41,053 nucleotides of DNA, from NCBI GenBank assembly GCA_009773155.1, contig WOVA01000029.1, forward strand, positions 1-41,053, in the 5' to 3' direction. Positions 4,376-34,614 of the stretch are shown one piece after another. The notes under the pieces are model-generated. The model saw only the letters and a list, made by a program, of their open reading frames with translations. It did not search any database and was not told the DNA's origin. Every line of letters starts with the position of its first letter. Position 1 is the first letter of the stretch. The translations under genes and the position numbers were made by a program. The DNA comes from Elusimicrobiota bacterium (GTDB taxonomy: Bacteria > Elusimicrobiota > Elusimicrobia > Elusimicrobiales > UBA9959).

Positions 4376-5116
4376 ATGAACAAGGCCTTTATTAAAATCT
4401 TCATCCTGTTGTGTGCGCAGACATTGTCGTATGCTTCTTTGCCTGTATCAGACGCACACCACTATTCGCGCCCGACCAAAATCACACACCCGCATATTTT
4501 CCTGAACCGCCCGGTTGAAATCACGCAGGTCTTCGGGGGCGTGACATACACATTGCGCTATGTCTATGACGCGGCCGGCAACCGCGTGTCCCGGGAAGAC
4601 CGGGACGGCAGGACGACTTATTCTTATGACCTCGCCAACCGCCTGATACGCGCTGACGACCCCATGGCCGCCGAAACCTTTGCCTACGACGATAACGGCA
4701 ACAGGCTCGCAGATAAAGAGGCCAAAGACTACGCCTATGACGCGGCCAATCGCATTCAGGCCAACAGCCTTTACACGTTCGCCCACGACCCCAATGGCAA
4801 CCTGACCAACTGGACCAATAAGAGCGGCAACGCCACGATAACCTACGACTACAACCCGGAGCAGCGGCTTTCCGAAGTGAACACCCCGGACCGCAGTGTT
4901 AGCTACAAATACGACCCTTTAGGCCGAAGAATTGAGAAGGCTGTGGACGACGATTGGGAAAGAAGCTACTTCTCACAAGAAGACACGATTGGCCTAACAG
5001 GAAGACACAATCTCTATGCATATGCGCATAATTGACCAGTAAACTATATCGATCCGAGCGGAGAATTCGTTCGGACTGTAATCCTCGCTGGACAGATGAT
5101 TTCAGTTTTAGGATAA
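4376..5116 (+). pseudogene. Rhs/YD-repeat pseudogene with signal peptide, internal deletion and premature stop
   Basis: The frame starts with a plausible signal peptide (lysine, then a hydrophobic stretch to ASL near residue 22). After about 40 residues it joins YD repeats nearly identical to 2673-3050. At about residue 190 it jumps from EKAVDDDWERSY straight to SQEDTIGLTGRHNLYAYAHN, so roughly 110 residues of core present in the 2235 copy are missing. A TGA at 5033-5035 stands where the copy at the left edge has a His codon. The frame then continues as PVNYIDPSGEFV, skips most of the tip, and ends at TAA 5114-5116. It is a relic with two deletions and a stop. Confidence 0.8.
4568..4945 (+). 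repeat. YD-repeat direct repeat (partner at 2673-3050)
   Basis: About 380 bases match 2673-3050 at an offset of 1895. The first half is almost identical (VSREDRDGRTTYSYDLANRL segment) and divergence increases towards the 3' end. This supports duplication of the Rhs core followed by decay of the third copy. Confidence 0.8.
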
Positions 5117-19012: not shown

Positions 19013-19485
19013 AATTTTCGTGGGACGAAATTATTCAGCAGTATGCTGCAATCTTGGAATACGGGCAGTATACTGCACGTTCTACTTCTGCACTTCAATT
19101 TCCTATTAAAGATATTCAAGATGCGTTGAATGCGGCGTGGATAATAACAGAATTGAGGGAAGACAAAGGTGATGTGTGGAAATTGAAATACCAGAATGCT
19201 TTAGAAGACAGCTATTTGCACATGGCAATATTTATCCCTCAGGAGGACTATGAAGTTGTTGCGCTTTACGAATCCTTGAGACAAGCCATAGCCGACAAAA
19301 GTATTTCTGACGTGAAGAGGCGGGAAGATTTACAAACATTAGGAGTTATAACCCCAAAATATATAGAAGTACAACGCAGTATCGCAACCAAAATGAGAAA
19401 GTTGGCAAGCGAATTACAGGAAATTAAAAACACACTTAAAGGATTGCAGGAAGTTAAAAATACACGTAAATTGGCGGGGTCTTGA
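19009..19485 (+). CDS. Hypothetical accessory protein
   Basis: The 158-residue protein from ATG 19009 overlaps the stop of the preceding frame; ATG 18970 is an alternative start. It is polar and mostly helical: KFSWDEIIQQYAAILEYGQY, a central LKYQNALEDSYLHMAIFIP, and a C-terminal coiled-coil-like segment with a short internal duplication (LQEIKNTLKG / LQEVKNTRKL). No domain is recognised. It is the last gene of the inserted accessory block before the molybdenum subunit. Confidence 0.5.
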   Translation: MKFSWDEIIQQYAAILEYGQYTARSTSALQFPIKDIQDALNAAWIITELREDKGDVWKLKYQNALEDSYLHMAIFIPQEDYEVVALYESLRQAIADKSISDVKRREDLQTLGVITPKYIEVQRSIATKMRKLASELQEIKNTLKGLQEVKNTRKLAGS

Positions 19486-32932: not shown

Positions 32933-33703
32933 ATGCTTTCCCCCGCCTCGGGCATCTTCCTCTTCGACAAACCCGCCGGCATAACCTCACACGACGCGGT
33001 CGGCCTGCTGCGCCGGGCGCTGGGCCACAGGCATATCGGCCATACCGGCACGCTGGACCCTATGGCCACGGGGCTGCTCGTCATGCTGGCGGGCGCCGCC
33101 ACCAAACTGCAGTCCGGGCTGCAAGGCTGCTCCAAGACCTATACGGGACGCATAAAGCTGGGCGAGACCACCGACACCTGGGACGCCGAGGGCGAGGTGC
33201 TGAGCTCCGCCGACCCGGCCTCCGTCACGCGTGAAGCCGTCGCCGCCGCCATCCCCGCCTTCGAGGGAAAGATGATCCAGCAGGTCCCGCCTTATTCCGC
33301 CGTCAAGATCGGAGGCCGCCAGCTTTATAAGATGGCCCGCAGGAAAGAGGCGATGCCCGTAGTGAAGCGGGAAGTGGAACTCCACTGGCTCTCCTGGGAC
33401 TGGCAGCCGCCTTTCATAGATTTCGGGATAGAATGCGCCGGCGGCACCTATATCCGCTCCGTGGCCCACGAACTGGGCGCGGCGCTGGGCTGCGGCGGCC
33501 ACCTGGCCGCGCTGCGCCGGACCCGCGTGGCCGGGTGGAGAGTGGAGGACGCCGTCACGGCCGACTTCCTGCGCTCCGCCCCGAGTGAAGCCGTGGTCTC
33601 GCGCCTGTTGCCGGCGGAGAAAGGTACTGGGACACCATGCGGCATGGTGTCCCCCGCCGATACACCATGCGGCATGGTGTCCCCCGCCGAAGGAAGGCTG
33701 TGA
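32933..33703 (+). CDS. truB: tRNA pseudouridine-55 synthase
   Basis: The 256-residue enzyme makes pseudouridine 55 in the T loop of tRNAs. Motifs are LFDKPAGITSHDAV, GHTGTLDPMATGLL with the catalytic Asp, QVPPYSAVKIGG, and GTYIRSVAHELG. It lacks a C-terminal PUA domain, the shorter TruB form. The last about 20 residues are an oddity: a ten-residue unit (TPCGMVSPA plus D/E) occurs twice because of a 30-base tandem repeat containing a palindrome. The stop overlaps the ribF GTG start. Confidence 0.95.
   Translation: MLSPASGIFLFDKPAGITSHDAVGLLRRALGHRHIGHTGTLDPMATGLLVMLAGAATKLQSGLQGCSKTYTGRIKLGETTDTWDAEGEVLSSADPASVTREAVAAAIPAFEGKMIQQVPPYSAVKIGGRQLYKMARRKEAMPVVKREVELHWLSWDWQPPFIDFGIECAGGTYIRSVAHELGAALGCGGHLAALRRTRVAGWRVEDAVTADFLRSAPSEAVVSRLLPAEKGTGTPCGMVSPADTPCGMVSPAEGRL
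33629..33691 (+). repeat. Tandem 30-base repeat carrying a perfect palindrome inside the truB end
   Basis: The unit at 33632-33661 is repeated at 33662-33691 with only the last base changed. Each contains the palindrome ACACCATGCGGCATGGTGT, extended to 25 bases in the first copy (33629-33653). Being 30 bases, it keeps the truB frame. It lies just ahead of the ribF ribosome binding site. Confidence 0.9.
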
Positions 33704-34614
33704 AACGTTCGTGTCTGACCATCGGCGCTTTCGACGGCGTGCACCTGGGCCACGCCCGGCTGATCAAGGCGGCCATCGCCGAGGGCCGCGCGCGCGGCTG
33801 GAAGAATTCGCTCGTCTATTTCCCTCTTCCCCCGAAGTTCGTCTTCTCCGCATTCCACGAGAACTGCCTGGTCACCCTCCCCTCAGAGAGGGAAGCGATG
33901 CTGCGCGGGCTGGGCCTGGATTCCATCACCCCCGTCCCTTTCACCGACGAGATAGCTTCGATGGACGCGGAGGCGTTCTTCGCCGAGATAATCCGCGGCC
34001 GGTTCCGGGCCGACGGCCTCTGCGTCGGGGCGGATTTTGCTTTCGGGCGCGGGCGCTCAGGGGGCGTTGATTTCCTGCGCGCGGCCTGCCGCCGGGAAGG
34101 CATGCTGTTCCGCTCGGTGCCTTTCGTCTCGCGCGGCGGCAGGAAGCTCTCGTCCACGCTCCTGCGCGAATTGCTCTGGGAAGGAAAGGTCGGGAAGGCG
34201 GCCGCCTGCATGGGCCGCAACTATTCCGTCAGGGGGCCGGTGATACGGGGAGCGGGGCTGGGCAGGAAACTCGGCTACCCGACGGCCAATATAGGGGCGG
34301 ACCCGCTCAAGATACTGCCGCCCGGTATCTTCGCGGCGCGCTGCCGCGTGGACGGGGAAGAATTCGCCTGTGTGGCCAACTGCGGCCGCCGCCCGACGGT
34401 CAACACCCTCGGCGGCAGGATGCTGCTGGAGGCGCATATACTGGATTTTTCCAGGGAGATATACGGCGAGACGGTGGAAGTGGAATTTCTCAGGCGGCTA
34501 AGGGAGGAGGCGAAGTTCCCCTCCAGGGAAGCGCTGGTCAGGGCGATAGACGGGGACGTCTCGTCCGCCCGGGCCTATTTCAGGCGCGCCGCGCGCCCGG
34601 CGTCACGCCGTTAA
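33700..34614 (+). CDS. ribF: Bifunctional riboflavin kinase / FAD synthetase
   Basis: The 304-residue enzyme makes FMN and then FAD. The N-terminal FAD-synthetase domain starts LTIGAFDGVHLGH (nucleotide-binding HxGH type). A GADFAFGRGRSGG motif follows. The riboflavin-kinase domain has GRKLGYPTANIG and VANCGRRPTVN. GTG 33700 overlaps the truB stop (GTGA) and is preceded by AAGGAAGG at 33690-33697; starts further upstream would fall in the palindromic repeat. It is the last gene of the operon, only two bases from the convergent amidohydrolase gene. Confidence 0.94.
   Translation: MKRSCLTIGAFDGVHLGHARLIKAAIAEGRARGWKNSLVYFPLPPKFVFSAFHENCLVTLPSEREAMLRGLGLDSITPVPFTDEIASMDAEAFFAEIIRGRFRADGLCVGADFAFGRGRSGGVDFLRAACRREGMLFRSVPFVSRGGRKLSSTLLRELLWEGKVGKAAACMGRNYSVRGPVIRGAGLGRKLGYPTANIGADPLKILPPGIFAARCRVDGEEFACVANCGRRPTVNTLGGRMLLEAHILDFSREIYGETVEVEFLRRLREEAKFPSREALVRAIDGDVSSARAYFRRAARPASRR

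Follow-up and report, generated by a model that had tools for sequence, protein, structure and literature searches.

Palindromic repeats inserted in-frame into prokaryotic genes have been described in several systems. The intragenic REPs of the GTAG and CGTC super-families (Di Nocera et al. 2013, PMC3733652) are short palindromes of high copy number; they form dimers and enter unrelated proteins in-frame. According to the available part of that paper, such REPs occur in truB of S. maltophilia, E. litoralis and S. alaskensis and in DNA polymerase I, and its authors suggested that flexible linkers are where such insertions are tolerated. A REP family usually comes with a transposase of its own, according to the accessible text of PMC6006769. 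The TIR elements of TIRYTs and TIRtrons (subclass 2.1 in PMC6006769) have the terminal consensus GGGGWSAS (PMC3733652); TIR families that are dispersed and moderately abundant are also known, as are dimers. In Rickettsia, the palindromic elements (RPEs) are inserted in-frame in unrelated housekeeping genes and encode a conserved peptide, and RPE-1 also interrupts R. conorii truB (excerpts of PMC10969869, PMC2229807 and PMC3733652); the RPE positions in proteins are non-structured (PMC2996958, in the part available). That part of PMC2996958 also covers protein-coding palindromic repeats in genes of Wolbachia and Methanocaldococcus jannaschii.

The palindrome reported here lies at the end of truB in a bacterium of the phylum Elusimicrobiota. 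Like the intragenic REPs, it is short, of high copy number, present as dimers and inserted in-frame in unrelated proteins; with 25–27 bp and 116–129 places in the genome, it also resembles REPs in general, which are palindromes of 20–40 bp in high copy. Different from the intragenic REPs, it has no GTAG/GGAG or CGTC tag. Compared to the RPEs, which are ∼105–150 bp in length, it is much shorter (27–42 bp) and belongs to another phylum; the likeness to the RPEs is one of description, and the same holds for the elements of Wolbachia and M. jannaschii, whose hosts are unrelated. Since in-frame REPs (those in truB and polA included) and the Rickettsia elements are already in print, the kind of element is known. 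In the literature searched, we did not find the following three points in print: the phylum, a coding element that is a palindrome of the GGGGWSAS (TIR) type, and so strong a preference for one frame and for linkers. Elusimicrobiota has 0 occurrences in PMC3733652, the available text of which reports no frame bias of comparable strength for REPs; likewise, the sections of PMC3733652 and PMC6006769 at hand do not describe coding insertion of TIR-type elements. No published report of this palindrome family was found in the limited library searched.

The window, which is the whole 41,053-nt stretch analysed, has the gene order nusA–infB–rbfA–(DHH-type)–truB–ribF, in which all names except truB were assigned by eye. 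An Rfam scan of the window gave tRNA as the sole match. The features of the truB–ribF locus are as follows.

32933..33703, + strand: truB (tRNA pseudouridine synthase B), in which the element encodes a tail of 20 residues (ORF prediction, Pfam, AlphaFold2)
33623..33663, + strand: copy 1, long (class A) form, GGTACT-GGGACACCATGC-G-GCATGGTGTCCC-CCGCCGATAC (alignment of 89 genome copies)
33629..33653: palindrome of copy 1, GGGACACCATGC-G-GCATGGTGTCCC, with 12-nt arms 100% complementary and a 1-nt centre
33662..33680: palindrome of copy 2 (tandem unit, without the outer GGG)
33632..33690, + strand: direct repeat of 29 identical nt with a period of 30 nt (10 codons)
33690..33697, + strand: likely Shine-Dalgarno sequence of ribF, AAGGAAGG, as read from the sequence
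33700..34614, + strand: ribF, the GTG start of which (33700) overlaps the truB stop (GTGA)

The original prediction described a 30-base palindromic unit duplicated in-frame at the end of truB, and this was borne out. The 29-nt units at 33632–33660 and 33662–33690 are 100% identical, start 30 nt apart and are in frame inside truB; TRF reported a period of 30, 2.0 copies, 100% matches and a score of 118, the top score in the window. The two peptides assigned to TruB, TPCGMVSPAD and TPCGMVSPAE, are correct as judged from the translated truB ORF: the C-terminus reads ...EKGTGTPCGMVSPADTPCGMVSPAEGRL*, with GTGTPCGMVSPADTPCGMVSPA added shortly ahead of the final residues. Copy 1 is in a minority orientation and frame ('rev 0') and encodes the peptide GTGTPCGMVSPAD; on the − strand, C55:33624-33657 fits the long-form pattern with 0 mismatches. 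The Pfam matches of TruB are TruB_N (residues 27–174) and TruB_C_2 (175–216), and the palindrome copies are located at residues 236 and 246. In the AlphaFold2 model of TruB (made with 29 relatives), the mean pLDDT is 88 and the values are ∼90 or more over most of residues 1–230; residues 233–256 form the sole segment of ≥3 residues under pLDDT 50. As DNA, the 55-nt stretch 33629–33683 is predicted to fold at −25.6 kcal/mol (z −7.5). Elsewhere in the window, an AT-rich 30-bp tandem repeat (19413–19470, 1.9 copies, 85% match) lies in GC-rich surroundings.

A mobile palindrome that had invaded a coding end was one reading given by the original prediction, and the genome-wide search, the truB comparison and the comparison of congeners described below support it. 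Far from being absent elsewhere, the 17-nt core (≤2 mismatches) was found at 129 places in the 2.76-Mb genome, 69 of them exact, and the reversed control pattern at 0. The 25-nt pattern occurs at 116 places in the own genome (G000), at 12, 9 and 7 places in three congeners and at 1 place in one other genome of the family; it has 0 places in the rest of 61 genomes. Within the phylum, the palindrome is present in 8/340 genomes, which are the own genome, the three congeners and four genomes with 1–3 places; these are draft assemblies, apparently metagenome-derived, and the named relatives are titled MAG. With TruB as the query, the closest named relatives found are records of Elusimicrobia. For the own genome, we examined 110 sites within the fetched loci, accepting those at which the 25-nt palindrome had ≤4 mismatches or the 17-nt core had ≤1; those of the 129 core places outside this set are weaker copies. 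One 782-residue Pro/Ala-rich protein of the own genome (G000:C73:140937-141837; L105:2111-4459), which has no Pfam match, contains five palindrome copies. In another genus, a single gene (G150:C91:4363-4750; L168) has three coding copies (PASxGDTIRHDVPVP).

Alignment of 89 own copies revealed two forms, bare and long. The bare form is the symmetric GGGGACACCATGC-S-GCATGGTGTCCCC, 27 bp or 9 codons in length, with unrelated flanks and no tag; as DNA, it is predicted to fold at −13.3 kcal/mol (z −4.9). The long form is asymmetric, 42 bp or 14 codons in length, and ends in G(T/A)AC on one side; in the usual coding orientation it reads GCATC(A/G)GCGGGGGACACCATGC-S-GCATGGTGTCCC(N)GT(A/T)C. Five of its six readings are stop-free. 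With the flank orientation fixed, the central base of 66 long-form copies is G in 33, C in 28 and A or T in 5; both G and C at the centre are expected if the hairpin flips, or is copied or inserted either way round. The arms are perfectly complementary in 45/66 of these copies. Tandem pairs 30 or 33 nt apart were observed at five places in the own genome and two in relatives: the 30-nt spacing of truB also occurs at C18, C29 and C34 of the own genome and in G145, and the 33-nt spacing at C18 and in G003.

Variation in the long-form flanks is concentrated at third codon positions (66/260, vs 10/312 at first positions); the core is nearly invariant, with 3/416 changes at third and 1/416 at first positions. 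The same flank pattern is present in 11 non-coding copies, so protein-level selection as its cause is unsupported, although the variable positions are few.

Every copy was masked during gene calling, so the element was unable to influence the calls; these came from a purpose-made codon-usage caller trained on own-genome loci (GC3 0.83), the training set of which omits five overlapping loci (L016, L017, L021, L026 and L044). By these calls, 81/110 own copies are inside CDS and 29/110 outside. In this the element differs from REPs, which are mainly extragenic, and from the published intragenic REPs, which are mostly intergenic in the available text of PMC3733652. Given the 90.5% coding density of the sampled loci, the genic share of 74% is somewhat under random placement, a moderate depletion in CDS (p 3e-7). 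That most copies are intragenic, chiefly in one frame and in linkers, was overlooked by the original prediction.

The centre of 62/81 CDS copies is at the second codon position (phase 1), giving the reading GDTM(P/R)HGVP (binomial vs 1/3, p 2e-15); the proportion is 45/61 after collapsing to one site per 1.5 kb (p 1e-10) and, independently, 20/26 CDS copies in relatives (p 7e-6), where all three p-values assume an independence that related copies do not fully have. Once unmasked, 6 of the 81 sites have a stop; excluding them, 60/75 are in phase 1. For the long form, 41/51 genic copies share one orientation and frame, ASAGDTM-x-HGVPVP/Q, as do 14/16 in relatives. In the dominant phase, the opposite orientation runs into a TGA; the remaining four readings have no stop but are seldom used. 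In flank-only scoring, 19/24 gene-interior long-form copies are in the dominant frame and random positions are phase-uniform (602/626/634). A caller artefact favouring one phase is rejected by the masked-element calls together with the flank-only scoring.

The sites avoid Pfam domains. Among 30 scanned proteins, 24 had a Pfam match and the 6 matchless proteins were excluded; in these 24, 4/30 sites are inside Pfam domains vs 18.9 expected from coverage, and 0/200,000 simulations were as low, with domain envelopes taken as the best stretches, entered by hand and partly merged, and extra stretches of repeated domains left uncounted. In an ECF sigma factor, a copy separates sigma-70 regions 2 and 4; in a response regulator, a copy falls between the receiver domain and the DNA-binding domain. 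Methionine synthase (MetH) has one between its pterin and B12 domains, and a fumarate-reductase-like protein has one between its FAD domain and its C-terminal domain. Others lie in the tau-type tail of DnaX, in the linker of FtsK, after the 5′-3′ exonuclease of DNA polymerase I (PolA), and in the tails of ScpB and TruB. Several copies come after a signal-peptide-like stretch, as judged by eye.

To follow the history of the copies, we compared relatives. In truB, the copy is missing in 29/29 retrieved relatives (41 genomes were searched; G003 and G012 gave no truB match), and among these the tandem arrangement at truB–ribF is seen in this species only. For 23 own sites in four long stretches, the congeners are often empty and sometimes filled; no clear target-site duplication was seen by eye at these 23 sites. 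Within one PKS-like linker, G000, G003 and G031, the last from another genus, have a copy at an identical position, and the linker varies in every other relative; this copy is either old or recurrent. A bare copy also present in G003 shows a compensated pair difference, CACCATGC/GCATGGTG vs CACAATGC/GCATTGTG, which costs a Gly-to-Cys change. Compared to relatives without the element, the median net length is +2 codons for the long form and +7 for the bare form, in 47 comparisons that contain a few relatives with the element in another frame (7 comparisons were flagged 'has element', and at least 2 more were missed: C42:35097 with G002 and C18:18078 with G001). The small net gain means that linker loss or replacement accompanied insertion, or that linkers diverge too fast to tell; a simple clean insertion is not demonstrated by these sequence comparisons. 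In C27 of the own genome, two inverted copies (G000:C27:46949-47012 and 51086-51149) have 64 identical bases extending past the element, which suggests recombination between them.

The enzyme that may move the palindrome was sought among Y1 transposases. A PF01797 search identified three Y1 genes in the own genome and seven in the genus. Scored against the NCBIfam REP-associated tyrosine transposase model (REP_Tyr_transpos, cut-off 80), the three own proteins L031, L032 and L033 reached 83.6, 70.5 and 51.9, respectively, so that only L031 exceeds the cut-off. Six of the seven genus genes are flanked by inverted repeats starting GGGGAC. The palindromes flanking L033, L135 and L136 have GGGGACAC.AT in common with the dispersed element and a different inner half. 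In G000, G002 and G003, a Y1 copy beside a probable isoleucyl-tRNA synthetase gene (named by eye) has the palindrome GGGGACACAATACCTATTTC... on both sides, with GGGGACAC.AT as its outer part. In the dispersed element, GGGGACAC is present at both ends of most bare copies and fits the TIRYT consensus GGGGWSAS. As with TIRYTs, the terminal motif matches, and the own genome has related Y1 genes with GGGGACA inverted repeats. Different from TIRYTs and from REPs with a cognate RAYT gene bearing the same flanking repeat, the dispersed palindrome itself flanks 0/7 Y1 genes in the four, incompletely assembled, genomes of the genus. Since it flanks none of them, the link to a transposase is one that we infer: the palindrome is probably of REP/TIR type and related to the Y1 (REP-associated) transposases whose inverted repeats share GGGGACA. 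Its cognate enzyme may have been lost, may be missing from the assembly, or may not be the mover.

The palindrome is scattered over the genome, is present in some congeners and absent from others at individual sites, has the capacity to form a perfect hairpin and is mostly intragenic. We consider it likely that the pair in truB represents two tandem copies of a mobile palindrome, short and non-autonomous, which recently expanded in this Elusimicrobiota species and is tolerated in genes. The copies would move as hairpin DNA, probably with the help of a trans-acting Y1/HUH transposase of the REP-associated/TIRYT kind. Insertion would be roughly gene-blind and followed by purifying selection, which would remove out-of-frame, stop-bearing, Cys/Trp-rich or domain-breaking insertions and leave intergenic copies and in-frame linker insertions. 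In truB, the insertion may be largely neutral, situated in a disordered C-terminal tail and later duplicated by 30 nt. A further possibility, which we hold to be doubtful, is that the element is adapted to genes: its units are whole codons (27, 30 and 42 nt), five of the six long-form readings lack a stop, its ends fall at codon boundaries in the dominant phase and it would spread as a ready-made flexible-linker cassette, in which case the frame would be chosen at insertion or by the evolved sequence, not only by later purging. A spread that depends chiefly on recombination or gene conversion among GC-rich Ala/Pro linkers, and not on a transposase, is unlikely; it would fit the small net length change of the long form (median +2 codons), the two C27 copies with their 64 identical bases beyond the element and the failure to find a cognate transposase among the seven genus Y1 genes, but the bare copies have unrelated flanks, intergenic long-form copies have the same flanks as the others, and presence and absence differ between species at sites without flanking homology.

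The original prediction also proposed that the hairpin tunes ribF translation, a claim that found no support beyond position. The end of the second palindrome is 19 nt ahead of the ribF GTG, which was placed from the aligned relatives L051 and L052, and the palindrome provides ATGs in the ribF frame; a longer predicted ribF ORF, from ATG 33637, begins within it. In the RNA fold of 33600–33740, the two copies are predicted to pair (z −4.5), a result that shows solely that both can pair with each other. Against this stands the truB–ribF junction of all 29 retrieved relatives, which lacks the palindrome and makes a conserved ribF switch unlikely; the GTGA overlap and a GGAAGG-type ribosome-binding site are also present in L052, which has no palindrome. 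In addition, truB is just one of ∼72 called genes with copies, and the pair is translated within truB, so ribosomes would open the hairpin. We regard tuning of ribF translation by the palindrome pair as quite improbable, and ribF regulation was rejected as the main reading because no retrieved relative keeps the hairpin. Overall, the interpretation of the original prediction is partly supported. Maintenance of the family for its encoded peptide (ASAGDTMPHGVPVP as a linker or tag), with spread by protein selection, is very improbable: one frame is dominant, linkers are the insertion sites, the PKS-like linker site is common to three genomes of two genera and the flanks of the long form vary mostly at third codon positions, but 29/110 copies are outside called genes, other frames give unrelated peptides (GTGTPCGMVSPAD in TruB), the core has no clear synonymous excess, which fits recent copying at the DNA level, and the third-position pattern extends to the 11 non-coding copies. 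A DNA signal (an uptake or protein-binding sequence) that is retained by the protein reading it, and that genes tolerate in a preferred frame, could explain the high copy number, the nearly invariant core and the preferred codon phase. Its length and hairpin form speak against an uptake sequence when compared to known ones; the adjacent 30-nt duplications, the 10-fold copy difference between congeners and the loss or gain in blocks, not single bases, also argue against such a signal, which we judge extremely improbable.

If the mobile palindrome reading is true, coding palindromes are not peculiar to reduced intracellular bacteria, as this 2.76-Mb genome would carry ∼80 genic copies, in core proteins and mostly in one frame. 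The copies would form a natural library for measuring the tolerance of in-frame insertions and would allow a test of HUH-transposase palindromes as drivers of linker evolution; annotation pipelines should then expect such peptides. If the element is in addition adapted to genes, interdomain linkers of replication, segregation and regulatory proteins would have been remodelled across a lineage. The genes for TruB and DNA polymerase I carry copies in this genome and have also been hit in Rickettsia or in other REP-rich bacteria; this raises the question whether the two are preferred as targets or simply tolerate insertion.

A second dispersed repeat, r2 (∼55 bp, GGCCGGATCAGG...GACCGGCC), has dozens of copies in this genome and is also present in congeners; examples are G000:C27:43589-43645 (L102:589-645), L103:7263-7317 and L103:17259-17316, among many others. 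As a within-genome contrast to the palindrome, 11/16 r2 places are in CDS with mixed phases, where some of the 16 places are from relatives and at least one locus (L104/L040) enters the count twice. In a polyketide-synthase-like gene (L103:7230-7350; G000:C18, ∼10264), r2 is nested in the loop of a long-form palindrome, in frame, reading SAGDTM-RPVAELPAPTAGNAALFR-HGVPVP. The N-terminus of ribF in L051 (WAS_Bin_5) has ∼15 extra residues at ∼4690–4760, just past the truB end, which look r2-like by eye; judging from L051, the truB–ribF junction may have been hit twice by different repeats.
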